From: an uncultured Thiodictyon sp.
GTDB taxonomy: Bacteria > Pseudomonadota > Gammaproteobacteria > Chromatiales > Chromatiaceae
Assembly (NCBI GenBank): GCA_903837595.1
Contig: CAILVI010000413.1
Location: 1 to 50,817, forward strand
Length of the DNA stretch: 50,817 nt
Direction: 5' to 3'
The notes below the pieces were generated by a model. It was given only the letters and a program-made list of their open reading frames with translations. It searched no databases and had not been told where the DNA came from. Below, piece after piece: positions 17,640 to 27,616 of the stretch (position 1 is its first letter; each line of letters opens with the position of its first letter). The position numbers and the translations under genes were made by a program.

Positions 17640-17842
17640 CGGTTAGTTCCGGGATCTGTTGGTTCGGTGCGTGTCCGGGCGCCGCGCCCCAGGCGACGCC
17701 CCAAGCGCGTGGCGGCGAAGGTAGCACGACTGAAATCGACGCGGTACCCGGTCGGCCGCCGCGACCCGCAGTGAGTGTGTCCCCGGATAAGGCTAGAATC
17801 TCCGCCCTGTACGATCGGTGTCGGGTGTTGCTTGGGGGCCTT

Positions 17843-18115
17843 ATGCGTGTTGTGTGTTGGTGCTGGATGCTGGTGGCGGTGGTATTGCTCGGTGGCTGTG
17901 GCGGGGGCGGCCAGTCCGTGGTCAGCAATCCGGAGGACCTGCCGGTCAGTTGTGTGGCCAAGCCCGGCGTGGGCAGCTGTCACGGCCACTACCGGAAGTT
18001 CTACTACGATTATCGCAGCAACCGCTGCAAATCATTCAACTACAGCGGCTGCGGCGGCCGGGTACCCTTCGAGACCCTGGAGGACTGCGTGAACTATTGC
18101 GGGGCCGTTCACTGA
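17843..18115 (+). CDS. Kunitz/BPTI-domain lipoprotein
   Basis: 90-aa protein. A lipoprotein signal peptide ends in the lipobox LLGGC (C19), then a Gly-rich linker, then a Kunitz-type serine-protease-inhibitor domain. Its six cysteines are spaced C-8-C-15-C-7-C-11-C-3-C, against C-8-C-15-C-7-C-12-C-3-C in bovine trypsin inhibitor, so one residue is missing in the last long loop. The hallmark F-YYDY and FETLEDC elements are present. The P1 position, just after the second cysteine, is His and not Lys/Arg, so trypsin inhibition is unlikely. The ATG at 17843 was chosen for the lipobox; an in-frame start at 17771 would bury it. Kunitz domains are mainly eukaryotic and uncommon in bacteria. Confidence 0.85.
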   Translation: MRVVCWCWMLVAVVLLGGCGGGGQSVVSNPEDLPVSCVAKPGVGSCHGHYRKFYYDYRSNRCKSFNYSGCGGRVPFETLEDCVNYCGAVH

Positions 18116-20241: not shown

Positions 20242-21120
20242 TCAGCGCACCTCGGCCAGCAGTCGGTCGATCATCCCGCGCGCCTGTCCCAGGTAACCGC
20301 TGCCAAATAAATTCAGATGGTTGAGTATGTGGTAGAGGTTATAGAGGGTCTTGCGGACCGTGTAGCCAGGGTCCAGCGGCCAGGCCTCCCGGTAGGCCGC
20401 GTAGAAATCCGCACCGAAACCGCCGAAGAGTTCGGTCATGGCCAGATCGGCCTCACGGTCTCCATAGTAGACCGCCGGGTCAAAGATCACCGGCGCCCCA
20501 TCGGGGAGCCAGCCCAGGTTCCCGCCCCACAGGTCACCATGCAGGAGTGCCGGCTGGGGTCGGTGGGTCAGCACGGCGTCGAGGTCGCAGCGCAGCTGCT
20601 CCCCGGCGTCCTGTAGGCCGCGGGCATAGCCGTTGCGTGCGGCCAGTTCGAGCTGGAATCCCAGCCGCTGGTCGCGCCAGAAGGCGGCCCAGTCATGGCT
20701 TGGGGTATTGGACTGGGGGGTGGCGCCGATGAAATTGTCCCGCGACCAGCCGAAGGTCGCCGATCCGCTGCGGTGCAACTCGGCCAACTGTCGTCCGGCG
20801 GTGGCGCCGCGGGTGGGTCCACCCAGTTCCAGCCGCTCCAGTACCAGGAAATTGCGGGTCGCGGTCTGGCCCCAACAGACCGGCGCTGGTACGCGCAGCG
20901 CGCCGGCTGCGGCGAGCTCGGCGAGCCCCGCGGCCTCCGCCTCGAACATAGTGTGCCGGGCGGCGGCGTTGGTCTTGACGAAATAGCTACGCTCTCCGGC
21001 GGTTAAAATCACCGCGTCGTTGATGCAGCCGCCGCCCACCGGGCGCGCGGCCGCGGTGGGGGCGAAGGGCTGGCCGGTGGCCGAGGCGATGTGCTGGGCG
21101 ATCACTGCCCAGTCAGTCAC
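20242..21120 (-). CDS. Fructosamine kinase family protein
   Basis: 292-aa kinase of the fructosamine-3-kinase/ketosamine-3-kinase family, related to aminoglycoside phosphotransferases. It shows the nucleotide-binding GGGCIND, the lysine in YFVKT, and the catalytic HGDLWGGN (H194, D196, N201) followed by a metal-binding D in FDPAVYYGDRE. The family phosphorylates fructosamine or ribulosamine adducts on proteins, which then fall off: a deglycation step. It starts with GTG at 21120, overlapping the preceding deacetylase by eight bases. Last gene of the seven-gene operon 27616-20242, whose first gene is a DJ-1/PfpI protein, another family linked to glycation damage. Confidence 0.92.
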   Translation of the reverse strand: MTDWAVIAQHIASATGQPFAPTAAARPVGGGCINDAVILTAGERSYFVKTNAAARHTMFEAEAAGLAELAAAGALRVPAPVCWGQTATRNFLVLERLELGGPTRGATAGRQLAELHRSGSATFGWSRDNFIGATPQSNTPSHDWAAFWRDQRLGFQLELAARNGYARGLQDAGEQLRCDLDAVLTHRPQPALLHGDLWGGNLGWLPDGAPVIFDPAVYYGDREADLAMTELFGGFGADFYAAYREAWPLDPGYTVRKTLYNLYHILNHLNLFGSGYLGQARGMIDRLLAEVR

Positions 21121-22000
21121 GAGGGCGGCCCTCGCGGCTGTGCGGGGGGGCGCCAGGGTAGTCTCCCGCGATGACCTGGTGAATGGTCCTCACATAGGTG
21201 CCGTGTACCGCGCGCCGTTTCAGCCAGAACAGGAATCGCACCAGGGTGTCCTCGTTCACTGAATAGAGGTCGCAGCCATCGCAGATCTTGTGAAAGACCA
21301 TCGTCACCCAACCGCCGCCGTGGGCCTCGGCCGCTGTGACGTGGTGCTGCAAGGCGGCCAGGCTGTCGGTTGCGATCACGCTTTCGTTGCTGTAGAGGAA
21401 ATAGGGGTCAGGTGGGGGCAGTGCCTCTGCCGCAGGACAGGTTGGGCAGTCCCCCGATGCGCCGACACTGCGCGCGCTTTCGTACCTGCCGATCGGCTTA
21501 TGGAAGGGGCCGTAGGTGCCGGGGCAGCCGCCGGCCACGATGTCCCGGGTGGCGGGGCCGGTGGAGGCGAAGGGATAGGCGAACGAATACACAGCGTTGC
21601 CATACCACTGCCGCAACTGCTTCAGGTCATCGCAAATGGCCTTGCGCTGGGCCACCTCGCTCAGTGTGGCAAGGTCGACGTGGTCGATGGTGTGTCCGCC
21701 GATGTCGTCGCCGTTGTAAAACAGCGTATCGAGTTCGCGCTTGGTCAGAAAATCGCCATTGTTGATGCGCCCGGACCGGCGTATCGCATCGGAGTTGACG
21801 TAGAAGGTCGCCGGCAATCCGGTGTCGAGCAGCGGCGCGATGGCGGCCGACTGCATCAAACCGTCGTCGAAGGTCAACGACACGATCGTCGCGTGGCCCG
21901 CCGCCTGGAGTGCTTGCGGCGCATTCAAAGCCAACAGGAAGCTAAGGCATAAGCCTTTGATAACGAGACTCGCCCTTGGTAAACGCGATGATTTCGCCAT
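21113..22000 (-). CDS. Secreted polysaccharide deacetylase family protein
   Basis: 295-aa NodB-homology protein. Residues 1-34 form a signal peptide. The metal and catalytic motifs are SLTFDDG (D45, D46) and GGHTIDH (H103, H107), with a later FAYPFA motif. Family members remove N- or O-acetyl groups from cell-surface or extracellular polysaccharide in the periplasm or outside. The gene starts one base after the oxygenase stop and overlaps the kinase start by eight bases, so it is firmly in the operon even though its exported product differs from the cytoplasmic neighbours. Substrate unknown. Confidence 0.9.
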   Translation of the reverse strand: MAKSSRLPRASLVIKGLCLSFLLALNAPQALQAAGHATIVSLTFDDGLMQSAAIAPLLDTGLPATFYVNSDAIRRSGRINNGDFLTKRELDTLFYNGDDIGGHTIDHVDLATLSEVAQRKAICDDLKQLRQWYGNAVYSFAYPFASTGPATRDIVAGGCPGTYGPFHKPIGRYESARSVGASGDCPTCPAAEALPPPDPYFLYSNESVIATDSLAALQHHVTAAEAHGGGWVTMVFHKICDGCDLYSVNEDTLVRFLFWLKRRAVHGTYVRTIHQVIAGDYPGAPPHSREGRPRD

Positions 22001-22001
22001 G

Positions 22002-24263
22002 TCAATGCTCCAGCCGTCCTCGCTGCTCCAGGTCCTGTGTCCGCTGCTGCACCCGCCGTTCGTAACTCGCCTGGTTCTTGGTGCAGACCAAGGTATGGGG
22101 ACTACCCCGTTTGTCGGTGGCCAGATTCAGGTCGCTGCCGCTGTGCCTCGCCACCTCGCTCACATGGGTGCGTGCGTTCTGCGCGGCCTTGAGCCGCCAG
22201 ATCGACTCCATGGGGGAGGCGAGGAAGCGGGAGAGACCCTGGCAATCGTTGCAGGAGCAGGTGAGGCCCGCCGGGCGGCTGAGATCCGCCGGTGGCTCCA
22301 GCGGTTCGGCGATGCGTTGGTTCAGATGTGCGAGGACGCTCTGGCGTAGCGCCGCAACGGCCGTGGTTCGCGGACCCGCGACGGTCGCGGCGTGTAGCAC
22401 GAGGGCGGCGGGGAGTAGGATGTTGTCCATGCCGTAACGTTCGGGGTGTGCCATGAAATGCTCCAGCGCCCGGTCGGCCAGTGTTGGGTCGATCCGCCCG
22501 AGTGCGGTCAGGGCCTGGACGACCAGTTCGGGGGTTGGGGGCTCGCGCCGCGGGTGCAGACCGAACGGGGGGCTGGGTGGCGGCTGCTCTTGCGTGGTGA
22601 GCGCGGCGAGCAGTGCGAGTGCCGCAGCGCGCCAGGGCTCTGGCCCGCCCGCGGGGTCCGCGCTCATGCGCCCCAATAGGTCTGCGCAGGCGGCCGGCTG
22701 GCGGGGTGCGTTGCCGGCGACGATGGCCGCCAGCAGGTTCGCGGCGCGCGCGCTGGGCAGCCGGGCGAGCATGGCCGCCAGCTGCTCGTTGTCGTGCGGG
22801 CCATAGGCCCCGACCGCGGACTGTCCGGCCAGGAAGACCGCGGCGCACTCGGGGTCGTTGAGGCGCGCCAGCGCATCGAGCAGTGCCCGGGTCCGGCCGG
22901 CCTCGCTCGCCTCTTTGCGCGCCCAGTCTTGTTGTGGCCAGGTGGCGCCGATCTGGGCGGCGAGTGCGCGCGCCTGCGCGCGCAATGGGTCCGCGGGTGC
23001 CCGGCCGGCCGCTTCCCAGTGCCGCACCAGCTCCCCCAGGAACGGCAGGCTGACCTCCAGGCCCCCAGCCGCGAGGACGGCCGCCCGGTTGGCGTGGGGC
23101 CAGAGGACGAGCGCGGCGCATTGGTAGGTGCGCTCGAAGGAGGCGCCCGCGTTTCCGGTGGCCTCGGAAAACTCGGGCTCCGCGTCGTCCCCGGCCGCGA
23201 ATGCCCCTGGCGGAGCGACCTCGTCGCCGCAGAAGGGCAGGGCGCCCATGGCCGGCCGGGTGCCGTCCGGGTGGCGCCAGTCGTGGAGCGACTCACTGCT
23301 TTCGGTGACTTCGCCGACCTCGAACTCGGGCTCATGCCAATCCCCGCCGCATTCCGCGTAGCCGTATTCCTCAATGCTCGCGAGTGCCAGGAAGAGGTCG
23401 CAGTCGGCCGCGCGGGTGGCGGCGCTCACCACGGCGGTGATCGCGGCATCCGTGCCCTTGAGGGTGTCGAATCCCAACTCGGCCTCGGTATAGGCGTGCT
23501 CCAGCGGATAGACCAGCTTCAGGGGCAGCGCGGGGGCAGAGTGCCGCGGGTTGCCCCAATCGCGCAGCAGCGCCGTCAACTGGGCCTGCTCGGTGTCGTA
23601 ATCAGGCGGCTGGGGGAGCTGTTCACCATCCGGGCGGATCAGGTTGTAGATCAGGGTCAGCCGGTGGCCGGACCGGATTGGCAGGACCTCGTGCAGGCAG
23701 TCCGCATAGAAGGCGGCAAACGCGGCCTCGGACGGCTCGTCCCGGTGCAGGTCCAGCCGGACCTCCTGACCCCGGTGCCGCACCAGCAACTCCCCGCCCG
23801 CAAAGTCCCCGGGCAGGACGACGACCAGGGTGGCGAACATCCCGGGCGATTTCTCCGTGTCGCGGTGCGAGAGGAAGAAGCTGCCCTCCTCGTAGACCAG
23901 CAACTTGTAGAGTTCGGCTTCCACCCGTCCGGTCACGCCAAACGCGGCAGCGACCCGCGTCACCACGGCAGCCAGGTCCTCGGCCCAGCGCCGGCCAGTG
24001 ATCTGTACCCGGGCGGCGTCGAGTTGCCAGGTGCGCCGGACCCGGGTGTCCACCAGCGTTTCGGTGCCGCGTCCATAAGGTGCCTGCTCGGCGATTGACT
24101 TGATTTGCTCGGCCTGCATGGACAGCAGTGGCAGCGCGATGGCGCCGACGCCCTCGACCTCCAGACGGGGCGGGTGCAGGTCAAAGGTGCCGGTGGCATA
24201 GAAGTCGCCGGGGCGCTGGACTCGGGCCAGGCATTGCGCGAGTGCGGTGGCGAGATCGGACAT
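22002..24263 (-). CDS. 2-oxoglutarate/Fe(II) oxygenase with long C-terminal extension
   Basis: 753-aa protein. The N-terminal part (about 80-215) is a prolyl-4-hydroxylase-like double-stranded beta-helix with iron ligands H133-x-D135 (HRDTEK) and H191 (CLHEVLP), and the 2-oxoglutarate-binding R201 (SGHRLTLIYNL). Downstream are about 530 residues, Ala/Leu-rich and helical, with a Cys-rich piece near the C-terminus (TCSCNDCQGL). I do not recognise a named domain there. The ATG at 24263 has a GGAG upstream; an in-frame start at 24338 is possible but less likely. Expected activity is hydroxylation of a protein or small molecule. Located 98 bases after the RyR gene and one base before the deacetylase. 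Confidence 0.87.
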   Translation of the reverse strand: MSDLATALAQCLARVQRPGDFYATGTFDLHPPRLEVEGVGAIALPLLSMQAEQIKSIAEQAPYGRGTETLVDTRVRRTWQLDAARVQITGRRWAEDLAAVVTRVAAAFGVTGRVEAELYKLLVYEEGSFFLSHRDTEKSPGMFATLVVVLPGDFAGGELLVRHRGQEVRLDLHRDEPSEAAFAAFYADCLHEVLPIRSGHRLTLIYNLIRPDGEQLPQPPDYDTEQAQLTALLRDWGNPRHSAPALPLKLVYPLEHAYTEAELGFDTLKGTDAAITAVVSAATRAADCDLFLALASIEEYGYAECGGDWHEPEFEVGEVTESSESLHDWRHPDGTRPAMGALPFCGDEVAPPGAFAAGDDAEPEFSEATGNAGASFERTYQCAALVLWPHANRAAVLAAGGLEVSLPFLGELVRHWEAAGRAPADPLRAQARALAAQIGATWPQQDWARKEASEAGRTRALLDALARLNDPECAAVFLAGQSAVGAYGPHDNEQLAAMLARLPSARAANLLAAIVAGNAPRQPAACADLLGRMSADPAGGPEPWRAAALALLAALTTQEQPPPSPPFGLHPRREPPTPELVVQALTALGRIDPTLADRALEHFMAHPERYGMDNILLPAALVLHAATVAGPRTTAVAALRQSVLAHLNQRIAEPLEPPADLSRPAGLTCSCNDCQGLSRFLASPMESIWRLKAAQNARTHVSEVARHSGSDLNLATDKRGSPHTLVCTKNQASYERRVQQRTQDLEQRGRLEH

Positions 24264-24361
24264 GGGGGAGGGCTCCAGGAGCGAGCAATGGGTGTGGGGT
24301 GACGTCATCGGTGGGGCGGTCAATTTCAGTACCTGCACCGGCCGGTAGCGGTGCGGCGGTC

Positions 24362-26098
24362 TCAGTATTCAAATCCCCACTCGACCTGTCCGCCGAGCGG
24401 GTCCAGGACCACCCGTTTGGCCGCCCCCGCCGCGGCGGGCGCGGTGCCCAGGCAGATCCTGATCTCCGCGCGCGTGGCGAACCAGTGCTCCAACTCACCC
24501 GCCCCCGGGAGCGCGATACGCCGCTCGGCATGGGTCAGGAGTCCGAGCAGATCGAGTCGCGCGGCCTCATCCGGCTGCGTCGCCAGGGTTTCACGCAGCG
24601 GCTGTGGGCAGAGCAGAAAGAGTCCGGCCCCGGCCTGCTCCAAGGCGATGCGGGTGACCAGGCGCGCGGCCGGATCGGCCAGGGTGCCGGCGATGACGAG
24701 TGAGCGGTCCGGGTAGCGCGCCACCAGCCGCTCCAATACCTGCGCGGCGAGCTGCTGCACGCGCTCGTCCGCGGGGCAGTCCGCGACGGGTGGCGGCAGG
24801 CCCAGGATCAGCATCCGCACGACGCCGAGCCCCGAGCGGGCCAGCAGGGTGGGCACGCCACGTACGGCAAAGCGGTCCAGGTCCTTCATCGGCTCGCTCA
24901 AGTCGGGATAGGGGATCAGTTGGGGGTGGTGCCGGCGGGCGTTGTCCCGCACCGGGGCGTAGCTCCAGCCGTCCAGGTGACGGTCCGCGGCCCAGCGCAG
25001 GTGTTCGATCACCGCCAAGCGCTCCGCCTCCAAGGGGGCGAAGGTGAATGAATCCACCCGCTCTTCCTGGATCGCCCGGCAGTCCATCACCGCGAGCTTG
25101 GCCCACAGGTGGTCCGCCTGGTGCCGATTGGCGTCGCGATAGGATGCGCTGAGCCGCGACCAGGGGCGCCCGGCCGGCTCCCGCTCCGGGTCGCGTCCCT
25201 GGGCGGCGATACTGTCGGTATAGCTCTCATGGATAGTCCTGGCCAGCTCATCACCCAGACCATCGAACAGCACCGCAGGCCGGCAGGCCTCGTCCAGATA
25301 GGAAAAGGGGAAGGTTTGGCCGTCCCAGTCTGCCAGGGTGCCGGACGGGACCGCGTCTCCCACCTCCAGCAGGATCGGCGGGGAGACTCCCTGTGCCTGC
25401 GCCAGCCGCCGCACGGTGCGTGCTGCCGCGCTGGCCGCGGCAACCGGTGGGTCCGAGCACACCAGGACCAGCGACACGGGCGGCGCCTGGGCCAGCCCTG
25501 GCAGGTCCGGTCCAACCCATTGGATTTCAGCGACCTCGCCCGCGTGTGGGTAGGCCAGCGTGAAGTCGGTCTGTGCCTGCGCCTGCGCGGTCACGACGGT
25601 CACCCGCGGCCGCCACTCGCCGTAGGGAATCAGGCGCAGGGCCTGGGCCAGCAGCGCGCGTGCCGGGGGGGCGAAGCCGACCAGCAGCAGGTGGGGAACC
25701 TGACCGAATACCGGGTCCAGACCGCAGTGCAGGGGCCAGCGCGCGAGCAGCACCCGGGCGGCCCGGTCCTCGAGCGCAAAGGTCTCCAGGGTGATGGGGC
25801 CGTCCGGGTCGAGATCTGGCAGGGTCGGCGGCGGGTCCGCCTGGTGCATCAGGATGAGGCGCAGCGGCGCGACCCGTCCGCCGCGGGTGCTGAGCTGTCC
25901 GAGCAGGTTGGCGATCACTTCGGCCGGTTCCGGCGGATCGGCCAGGACCAGGGTCCGGCAGGCCTTGAGGTCGGAGAGGTCTGCCACGGGCCGCACCTGG
26001 ACGCGCCGGCCCAGTAGTGTCAGACCCGCGACGATCCGCCGCACCAAGGGCTCGGCCCCGGCGACCCAAATGGGCGGTTGACGCAACAGCCAGGTCAT
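24362..26098 (-). CDS. RyR-domain protein with Rossmann-like flanking domains
   Basis: 578-aa protein. Residues 1-250 contain two Rossmann-like segments (PPIWVAGAEPLVRRIVAGL; HLLLVGFAPPARALLAQAL), reminiscent of TrkA-N. Residues about 288-415 are a ryanodine-receptor RyR domain (IHESYTDSI, NRHQADHLWAKLAVMDC, LAVIEHLRWAADRHLDGWSY, MKDLDRFAVRGVP). Residues about 465-555 look like another nucleotide-binding fold (SLVIAGTLADPAARLVTRIAL). No membrane segment is seen, so it is not a channel itself. Bacterial RyR domains have been proposed, from comparative genomics, to sense nucleotide-derived ligands. Its start overlaps the OsmC stop by four bases. The role of the flanking domains is my inference. 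Confidence 0.82.
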   Translation of the reverse strand: MTWLLRQPPIWVAGAEPLVRRIVAGLTLLGRRVQVRPVADLSDLKACRTLVLADPPEPAEVIANLLGQLSTRGGRVAPLRLILMHQADPPPTLPDLDPDGPITLETFALEDRAARVLLARWPLHCGLDPVFGQVPHLLLVGFAPPARALLAQALRLIPYGEWRPRVTVVTAQAQAQTDFTLAYPHAGEVAEIQWVGPDLPGLAQAPPVSLVLVCSDPPVAAASAAARTVRRLAQAQGVSPPILLEVGDAVPSGTLADWDGQTFPFSYLDEACRPAVLFDGLGDELARTIHESYTDSIAAQGRDPEREPAGRPWSRLSASYRDANRHQADHLWAKLAVMDCRAIQEERVDSFTFAPLEAERLAVIEHLRWAADRHLDGWSYAPVRDNARRHHPQLIPYPDLSEPMKDLDRFAVRGVPTLLARSGLGVVRMLILGLPPPVADCPADERVQQLAAQVLERLVARYPDRSLVIAGTLADPAARLVTRIALEQAGAGLFLLCPQPLRETLATQPDEAARLDLLGLLTHAERRIALPGAGELEHWFATRAEIRICLGTAPAAAGAAKRVVLDPLGGQVEWGFEY

Positions 26099-26556
26099 GC
26101 CGACTGGTGCAGGACCTCGCCGGACTGGTCCAGGATGGTGACCAGCATCGGGATGCCCTGGCGGATGCTCGCCGAAACCACACAGAAGTCCTCGAACAGG
26201 TCCTTGCAGCGCGCGAAGCGGGGGGCCTCCTTGACCACGTCGGCGACGATCAACCTGACCTCGATCCGGTTGACTCGCAGGCGCTTCTTGTCGTTGCGCG
26301 CCACGCCGCAGCTGGCCTCCGCCCGCAGACAGTTGGCCGGGGGCTCGTCTTTGAACACGCAGAACAATAGGCTGGCCGCGAGGCAGTTGGCCGCCGCCGC
26401 CGCCAGCATCCGCGAGGCGTTGGGTCCGGCCTGTTCGCCTAAGGGCGGGCCCTCATCCATGAGCAGGTCAGGGGCGCGCTTCCAGTCGAACTTGGCGGTG
26501 ATCTGGAAGCCTTCCTGCTGCTCCAGGTGGATGGTAAAGAGGCCTTCTTCGGACAT
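26095..26556 (-). CDS. OsmC family protein
   Basis: 153-aa protein with the OsmC fold: FTIHLEQQEGFQITAKFDW, the helix PNASRMLAAAAANCLAASLLFCVFK carrying the first conserved cysteine, and a second conserved cysteine in EDFCVVSASIRQGIP. OsmC/Ohr proteins reduce hydroperoxides with a cysteine pair, and both cysteines are present. The ATG at 26556 is preceded by GAGGGGG at a suitable distance; the open frame upstream overlaps the next gene and is ignored. It overlaps the RyR gene by four bases and follows the cyclotransferase gene by 13. Substrate is unknown, and it could be a non-peroxidatic OsmC-like protein. Confidence 0.85.
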   Translation of the reverse strand: MSEEGLFTIHLEQQEGFQITAKFDWKRAPDLLMDEGPPLGEQAGPNASRMLAAAAANCLAASLLFCVFKDEPPANCLRAEASCGVARNDKKRLRVNRIEVRLIVADVVKEAPRFARCKDLFEDFCVVSASIRQGIPMLVTILDQSGEVLHQSA

Positions 26557-26569
26557 GCGAACATCCCCC

Positions 26570-27019
26570 TCACGCGGACGAATCATTGCACCACGTCGAC
26601 TGTCGACGTGGACGGTTCTTGGGGTCACGGGTGTGGCGCACCCCGGCGGCGCGGCAGGACTGCGGGTCGGCGACCAGGGCGCGCCAGTCGCCGCCCGGCA
26701 GCCGCGCCCGGTCCCCCCGATGGCCGCGGTAGAGATAGACCCAGGCGCTGCCGTAGGGGGTCGGCAACCGCCGGCGGGTATAGAGCCTGGGGTATTCCTC
26801 CAGCCGGTCCAGTTGTCTGAGGCCGCCCGTGTCGAGTCGAAACACCTCGCCCACGAGCGCCGTCGCGCCGGTCCGCACCGCTCCGGGGTAGGCGCCCAGC
26901 AGCACCAGGCTGAAGCAGGGCGCGGTCCGGTGGGGCCCCAGAAACTGTGCCCCGGCCAGCAACTCGTGATTGACCTCACCGCGCAGGAGGGTGCCATAGA
27001 CGAAAACCTGGTGCTGCAT
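26570..27019 (-). CDS. Gamma-glutamylcyclotransferase family protein
   Basis: 149-aa AIG2/GGCT-like protein. It begins MQHQVFVYGTLLRGEVNHELL with the substrate-binding YGTL loop and contains EVFRLDTGGLRQLDRLEEYP, whose acidic residues include the likely general base, plus the AWVYLY strand. Family members cyclise gamma-glutamyl amines, for example releasing 5-oxoproline from glutathione-derived peptides. After residue 115 a basic tail departs from the usual family end. It starts nine bases after the DJ-1 stop. Confidence 0.87.
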   Translation of the reverse strand: MQHQVFVYGTLLRGEVNHELLAGAQFLGPHRTAPCFSLVLLGAYPGAVRTGATALVGEVFRLDTGGLRQLDRLEEYPRLYTRRRLPTPYGSAWVYLYRGHRGDRARLPGGDWRALVADPQSCRAAGVRHTRDPKNRPRRQSTWCNDSSA

Positions 27020-27028
27020 CGACGCTGC

Positions 27029-27616
27029 TCACGCCTCGATGCGGCTGCCCAGCACCTGAAGGAACTTGCGGATCCACTCCGGGTGGGCGGGCCAGGCCGG
27101 GGCGGTGACCAGGTTGCCGTCGGTGTAGGCGTTGGAGGCGTTCTCGTTGACCTCGCACCAGTGGGCGCCGGCGCGTTCCACCTCCGGGCGTACGGCCGGG
27201 TAGGCGGTGCAGCGCTTGCCGTCCAGCACGCCGGCGGCGGCCAGGATCTGCTGGCCGTGACAGATGGAGGCGATCGGCTTATCACTGGCGGCAAACTGCC
27301 GCACGATCTCGATCACCCGCGGGTTGAGTCGCAGGTACTCGGGGGCGCGCCCGCCCGGGATGATCAGCGCGTCGTACGCGGCCGGGTCCACTAGGGCGAA
27401 GTCAGTGTTGATGGCGAACAGGTGCCCGGGCTTCTCGCTGTAGGTCTGGTCGCCCTCGAAGTCGTGGATGGCGGTGCGCACACAGTCCCCGGGGCCCTTG
27501 TCCGGACAGACGGTGTGGACGGTGTGTCCGACCATCTGCAACATCTGGAAGGGGACCATCGCCTCATAGTCCTCGACGAAGTCGCCGACCAGCATCAGGA
27601 TCGTTTTCGCTGTCAT
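27029..27616 (-). CDS. DJ-1/PfpI family protein
   Basis: 195-aa flavodoxin-like protein of the DJ-1/PfpI superfamily. The nucleophile elbow is C119-H120 in ASICHGQQI, with an acidic residue near the N-terminus (DFVEDYE), the usual catalytic arrangement. Members act as glyoxalase III-type enzymes, proposed deglycases, proteases or chaperones. Its place at the head of an operon ending in a fructosamine kinase favours a carbonyl/glycation role, which is inference. First gene of the seven-gene unit; it diverges from the S1-domain gene across 182 bases with a dyad and a TATACT box. Confidence 0.9.

Follow-up and report, generated by a model that had tools for sequence, protein, structure and literature searches.

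A soluble RyR-domain protein that may act with an MCE-type lipid transporter in Chromatiaceae

The window analyzed in this work, a stretch of 50,817 nucleotides from an uncultured Thiodictyon sp. (family Chromatiaceae), is contig C413 of a 7.8-Mb genome and carries between positions 20242 and 27616 a block of seven co-directional open reading frames (ORFs) on the minus strand, one of which encodes a protein with a RyR domain. Comparison of this block within the family revealed a conserved core composed of the RyR gene and an MCE (Mla-type) transporter, often accompanied by genes for LSDAT, DJ-1, gamma-glutamyl cyclotransferase (GGCT) and OsmC proteins. The partner whose presence matches that of RyR exactly is the MCE lipid transporter, which lies outside the window.

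The RyR gene (24362..26098, minus strand) encodes 578 amino acids (aa) and is a candidate nucleotide sensor on the evidence of Pfam, 39 orthologs, profile alignment with hhalign and hydropathy. Its RyR domain (PF02026; 45.1 bits against a cut-off of 27.4, E value 1e-11) was placed by Pfam at residues 358-422 (24833..25027, minus strand) and includes the pocket residues H366, W369, H391 and D408. Upstream on the same strand lie the genes for an OsmC-family protein (26095..26556, 153 aa; OsmC, 8e-7), a YtfP-like gamma-glutamyl(amine) cyclotransferase-like protein, the GGCT of this work (26570..27019, 149 aa; GGACT, 1e-24), and a DJ-1/PfpI protein (27029..27616, 195 aa; DJ-1_PfpI, 8e-47), the closest solved relative of which is DJ-1 homolog D. 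Downstream, also on the minus strand, follow three local neighbours outside the conserved core: a 2-oxoglutarate (2OG)-Fe(II) oxygenase gene (22002..24338; 2OG-FeII_Oxy_3, 3e-8), a polysaccharide deacetylase gene (21113..22000; Polysacc_deac_1, 3e-15) and a fructosamine kinase gene (20242..21120; Fructosamin_kin, 2e-105, confirmed by solved relatives as a clear family member). Counted by ORF coordinates from DJ-1 onward, the genes are separated by gaps of 9 and 13 bases, an overlap of 4, gaps of 23 and 1, and an overlap of 8; the gap of 23 between RyR and 2OG becomes 95 if the start of the 2OG gene is taken at 24266. The block is flanked by a divergent S1-domain gene on one side and a convergent SGL-type gene on the other, and a scan for promoters and terminators within it, giving 0 and 0, was uninformative. 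All seven ORFs are thus present as first described, each name is backed by Pfam, and the tight arrangement is real.

A search for the RyR protein in 146 family genomes gave matches in 44, of which 39 hold clear orthologs (E value 8e-123 or better, the next match being at 3e-32). The closest named match comes from uncultured Thiodictyon, and others include Lamprocystis, Thiocapsa, Thiocystis and a Chromatiaceae bacterium. Neighbours were searched for with the window genes (tblastn, E 1e-3) over about 7 kb on each side, or less where a contig is shorter; because some contigs stop near RyR, the neighbour counts are lower bounds and the downstream view is incomplete at those loci.

Clustering of the called genes brought out four that follow RyR and encode a permease, ATPase, MCE protein and lipoprotein, named by Pfam as MlaE, ABC_tran, MlaD and ABC_trans_aux; in the cassette of locus L042 the first three match at 3e-38, 1e-26 and 2e-5, the MlaD value being just over its cut-off. 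The divergent MlaE permease occurs in exactly the same 39 of the 146 genomes as the RyR ortholog, its match starting no more than 110 bp from the RyR stop codon in 15 of the 39 loci and lying within 3.5 kb of RyR in three more. Outside the 39, ten genomes gave weaker MlaE matches (E 1e-38 to 5e-21), one being G079 and the remaining nine showing identity of 36% or less. The window genome holds a second, better-scoring MlaE on contig C425. No small gene was recognised as MlaB between the cassette genes, among which no STAS profile was run. We consider it very probable that the link between RyR and the MCE transporter is a functional one.

The genes upstream of RyR follow it less closely. Counting same-strand genes within 5 kb, OsmC was found at 26, GGCT at 21 and DJ-1 at 20 of the 38 other ortholog loci (27, 22 and 21 of 39 with the window). 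A search for RyR beside OsmC, DJ-1 or GGCT, proposed in the preliminary description, located at least one of the three upstream of RyR in 30 of the 39 loci, window included. The order DJ-1/GGCT/OsmC/RyR recurs across the family, and because this order is conserved, chance packing of the four genes was rejected. The 2OG oxygenase and fructosamine kinase genes were detected by tblastn at none of the 38 other loci and the polysaccharide deacetylase gene at one (G035); since these three of the seven genes fail to recur, a conserved seven-gene unit was rejected as well. The operon as originally conceived therefore survives in its DJ-1, GGCT, OsmC and RyR part, while fructosamine kinase, 2OG oxygenase and deacetylase are of local occurrence only.

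This bears on the proposal that the block is a glycation/electrophile-damage operon, with RyR as the regulatory sensor and DJ-1, OsmC, GGCT and fructosamine kinase as the repair enzymes. The three conserved upstream proteins keep residues which we take to be catalytic: C58 and C125 are invariant in 27 OsmC sequences, the YGTL motif and E58 in 22 GGCT sequences, and E15 and E18 in 20 DJ-1 sequences, 19 of which also have C119. For GGCT the best solved relative is YtfP, and for OsmC no solved relative was found at E 0.01. The kinship of DJ-1 to homolog D and the clear identity of the fructosamine kinase agree with such a system, but the linkage of fructosamine kinase with DJ-1 and RyR is repeated at none of the other 38 loci, and the redox genes do not track RyR as the permease does. 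OsmC is present in 31 of the 39 RyR-positive and 44 of the 107 RyR-negative genomes, DJ-1 in 23 and 17, and GGCT in 25 and 8, respectively, so that 8 of the RyR genomes lack OsmC and 16 lack DJ-1. These counts were made at E 1e-3 for OsmC (75 genomes, some with partial genes), 1e-27 or better for DJ-1 (40 genomes, one with a fragment, G081) and 1e-28 or better for GGCT (33 genomes); the Fisher values for co-occurrence ignore shared descent and were not used as probabilities. Orthologs of both DJ-1 and OsmC are found together in 13 RyR-negative genomes, and the redox genes are therefore separable from RyR. A dedicated glycation system is thus an unlikely reading of the locus; DJ-1, GGCT and OsmC probably mend thiol and carbonyl damage under the same conditions.

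Two further features of this upstream and downstream region were observed. In G137 and G066 (L063:5895-6839 and L064:5937-6881) a single open frame, 314 aa long from the GGCT start, covers both GGCT and OsmC, a probable fusion linking gamma-glutamyl chemistry with OsmC. A thioredoxin-like gene is located downstream of RyR (L077, L079, L081, L082), following it on the same strand in genus g38 and lying nearby on the other strand in genus g16.

In many relatives a protein of 223-287 aa is encoded between OsmC and RyR, and the one from Thiocapsa marina (L039) matches the Pfam profile LSDAT_prok with an E value of 1e-64. LSDAT lies just upstream of RyR in 18 of the 39 loci (18 of the 38 outside the window). 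Over the cut-off it was detected in 21 of the 146 family genomes, 19 RyR-positive and 2 RyR-negative, matches under the cut-off (G048, G083) being left out, and in the class it was detected in 3 of 369 genomes. At L101 and L102 the LSDAT gene is located away from RyR, and just upstream of it there is a short lipoprotein-like ORF with a cysteine pattern that by eye resembles Kunitz/BPTI (L101:6549-6827, L102:6546-6830). A short lipoprotein-like ORF with the same kind of pattern, again by eye, is present in the window at 17771-18115.

When the profile of the 44 family proteins was aligned by hhalign with six RyR proteins from other families, the match had a probability of 100 and an E value of 2e-54; it covers residues 9 to 559 of the family profile and starts at template residue 112. 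The six proteins have N-terminal hydrophobic segments according to hydropathy, and four of them (L099, L100, L114, L115) contain TrkA_N, which Pfam did not find in L113, L117 or the window protein. No membrane segment was predicted in the window RyR protein (best 19-residue mean hydropathy 1.51, threshold 1.7). Because the alignment begins at template residue 112 and the hydrophobic segment is missing, the protein resembles the cytosolic portion of a channel-type protein; the idea that it is itself a channel was rejected for want of the membrane segment.

H366, W369, H391 and D408 are invariant in the 44 aligned proteins, a set from which duplicates, fragments and L036 had been removed. Their spacing (3, 25, 42) equals that of H75, W78, H100 and D117, which form the pocket of the phage protein RyDEP according to a 2026 preprint (PMC13232231); the mapping is by spacing, and judging from the end-points of the match to chain 35tm_A, D406 could take the place of D408. 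In a looser set of 45 proteins, which takes in kinase fusions and G052, H366 and D408 are kept in 45 of 45 and W369 and H391 in 43. The preliminary suggestion that RyR senses an NAD-derived nucleotide gains support from the phage work of the preprint, from the pocket spacing and from the presence of LSDAT in the 18 loci, and the pocket is somewhat more likely than not to accept a ligand of the ADP-ribose type or another adenine nucleotide.

Outside the ortholog set the surroundings of RyR are diverse. Matches were obtained in 3 of 368 genomes of the class other than that of the window and in 8 of 382 genomes of the phylum. At L099 RyR stands beside a TIR gene, at L113 near a TIR-nSTAND1-WD40 gene and caspase-domain genes, at L114 next to a patatin gene and not far from one that matches SLATT/DUF4231 weakly, and at L117 beside a phospholipase-effector-like gene. 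In two family genomes, G028 and G105, the second RyR gene is a protein kinase-RyR fusion. Since the TIR, caspase, patatin and kinase contexts differ between loci, RyR looks like a sensing module with varied outputs. Burroughs and Aravind have reportedly worked on SLOG, TIR and RyR domains. The kinase-RyR genes (L088:5990-7255, L089:6962-8263) may represent a nucleotide-regulated bacterial Ser/Thr kinase. A different family of the class has a RyR-domain gene that is short, stands alone and is similar in size to phage RyDEP (L103:6995-7330), with a gene that reads as TIR by eye (L103:10594-11424) about 3.3 kb away.

Phages carry related RyR domains: the window domain matched 200 phage records with E values of 1 or lower (1e-6 for the best), identity staying under 60% and coverage of the domain query under 80% throughout. 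These relatives slightly favour a nucleotide ligand. Alignment A1, run against viral contigs, yielded no relative that could be confirmed, and 72,556 plasmid records gave weak matches only, two to RyR and four to LSDAT. On the Arcobacter plasmid CP146529.1 (L134:4943-6432) a gene annotated as NAD-binding adjoins a separate RyR-domain gene, with a DUF4062 gene beside them; this pair is possibly a split form of an RCK-RyR protein.

Such contexts invite the explanation that the system is an anti-phage effector, in which RyR and LSDAT would sense a cyclic ADP-ribose (cADPR) isomer made by TIR proteins and convert the MCE transporter into an effector that damages the envelope or clears the signal. 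Besides the TIR, caspase-like and patatin/phospholipase-like neighbours of RyR in other families, the proposal draws on an LSDAT-SLATT gene at L096, which adjoins a WD40 gene with first residues that read as TIR by eye, and on phage RyR proteins that counter Thoeris (PMC13232231). The window genome itself has 16 TIR_2 matches, 14 of them over the cut-off. The 16 places amount to an unusual wealth of possible makers of NAD-derived signals. Against it, inspection by eye showed no TIR gene next to RyR in the Chromatiaceae loci, no TIR profile having been run over the 38 loci; the cassette is found among redox genes and is common to many species of the family; and PADLOC gives no match for the window RyR or for LSDAT. 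A defence role of this kind seems to us improbable.

A matching distribution could also arise by shared ancestry, if RyR and permease had been inherited in some lineages of one family with no working link between them. All the orthologs do belong to one family, and RyR is near the permease in 18 of the 39 genomes only. The distances of RyR and permease correlate (r 0.85 over 23 ortholog genomes) as expected of co-inheritance, and co-descent alone would give this too. Against such an explanation, the presence of RyR and permease agrees in four genera of mixed content, g57 (1 of 4 genomes), g27 (1 of 5), g23 (3 of 4) and g28 (3 of 4, the negative genome being only 83% complete), while OsmC, DJ-1, GGCT and LSDAT do not follow RyR so. 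Furthermore, five genomes outside the 39 have a weaker RyR match (G004, G028, G052, G076, G105), and in four of them a divergent MlaE overlaps or abuts the divergent RyR gene (-4, -4, -4 and +5 bp). Inheritance without a working link is accordingly given little credence. Least probable is that RyR is an enzyme cleaving cADPR-type nucleotides with the transporter as an unrelated neighbour. In its favour, H366 and D408, kept in every sequence, are spaced like H75 and D117, the catalytic pair of RyDEP. Against it, six of eight other homologs tested in the preprint bound signals without cleaving them and others did not bind although the pocket was kept (PMC13232231), and the exact co-occurrence of RyR with the permease would be left unexplained.

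The explanation that we prefer, with a probability of roughly 0.4, is that of a soluble nucleotide sensor controlling an MCE transporter and made alongside thiol repair. The RyR gene would encode such a sensor, homologous to the cytosolic part of RCK-RyR channel-like proteins but without their membrane segment, and its pocket would bind an ADP-ribose-type or other adenine nucleotide. The signal would be passed to a dedicated MCE-type ABC transporter, made of MlaE, MlaF, MlaD and the ABC_trans_aux lipoprotein, that would move lipids between the two membranes. Many relatives would also make LSDAT, a second nucleotide binder of the TRPM type, and DJ-1, the cyclotransferase and OsmC would repair thiol and carbonyl damage under the same conditions. 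In Escherichia coli the ATPase requires MlaB, a small cytosolic STAS protein, to enter the complex (PMC7367683); by analogy, the cytosolic RyR protein could serve its transporter as MlaB does, possibly by docking on the transporter ATPase. Direct control of the transporter by RyR is put forward tentatively, at somewhat less than even odds. The strongest form of the proposal, a ligand-gated lipid transporter in which the sensing half of a channel, detached from its pore, has been reused as an MCE regulatory subunit so that an NAD-derived messenger controls envelope lipid traffic with thiol repair alongside, we regard as more doubtful still.

Several observations weigh against a sensor-transporter pair. 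RyR and permease are distant in 21 of the 39 genomes, that of the window included, where the MCE cassette is on another contig than RyR (permease and ATPase on C488, MlaD and lipoprotein about 9 kb further); no LSDAT was found in that genome either. No permease match lies beside RyR in G052 or beside the kinase-RyR genes of G028 and G105, and in G079, which lacks RyR, permease and ATPase were matched in different frames of a 3.2-kb contig (L135, G079:C361). The pairing was seen in Chromatiaceae alone: the 8 RyR loci of the phylum that come from other families and the class loci L099, L100 and L103 gave no Mla match, in searches whose Mla queries came from Chromatiaceae and could miss very divergent genes in other families. 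Moreover, the genomes are related and the counts are not independent events. The broken frames of G079 are of the kind met in a decaying cassette or a poor assembly.

In purple sulfur bacteria a protein resembling the sensing half of a ryanodine-receptor-type channel, detached from the rest, is inherited with a lipid transporter and often lies beside thiol-stress genes; lipid transport may therefore be under the control of a small nucleotide signal. The matching occurrence of RyR and permease gives a bacterial RyR protein a concrete and testable partner. If the proposal holds true, it describes a nucleotide-regulated MCE lipid transporter, ties together redox stress, NAD-derived signalling and membrane lipid balance, and offers a soluble system for finding the ligands of RyR domains. 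Among the literature matches listed, none dealt with RyR together with Mla or with this operon, and none contained both 'RyR domain' and MlaE; in PMC9503650 and PMC7824862 a text search found no occurrence of RyR or ryanodine.

The elements of the system have relatives in several known ones. LSDAT shares the LSDAT_prok profile match with the SLOG domain of TRPM channels (PF18171) and is here a stand-alone soluble protein, unlike the domain in those channels. With RyDEP and other phage RyR proteins the window protein shares the PF02026 domain and four pocket residues at identical spacing; the preprint tested phage proteins and, in the text seen, assigned no function to a bacterial one (PMC13232231). 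The window domain differs in lying inside a 578-aa protein with an RCK-like first part, in being chromosomal and in being paired with a transporter. The RCK (TrkA_N)-RyR channel-like proteins found near TIR, caspase and patatin genes align with it over nearly the whole length, whereas the window protein has neither their N-terminal membrane segment nor a TrkA_N match and has an MCE transporter as its partner. Finally, the cassette shares MlaE, the ABC ATPase, MlaD and the ABC_trans_aux lipoprotein with the Mla/MCE transporter with MlaB (PMC7367683); in contrast to canonical Mla, the permease described here is divergent and additional to the second MlaE of the window genome, and in 15 of the 39 loci the cassette is headed by the RyR gene.

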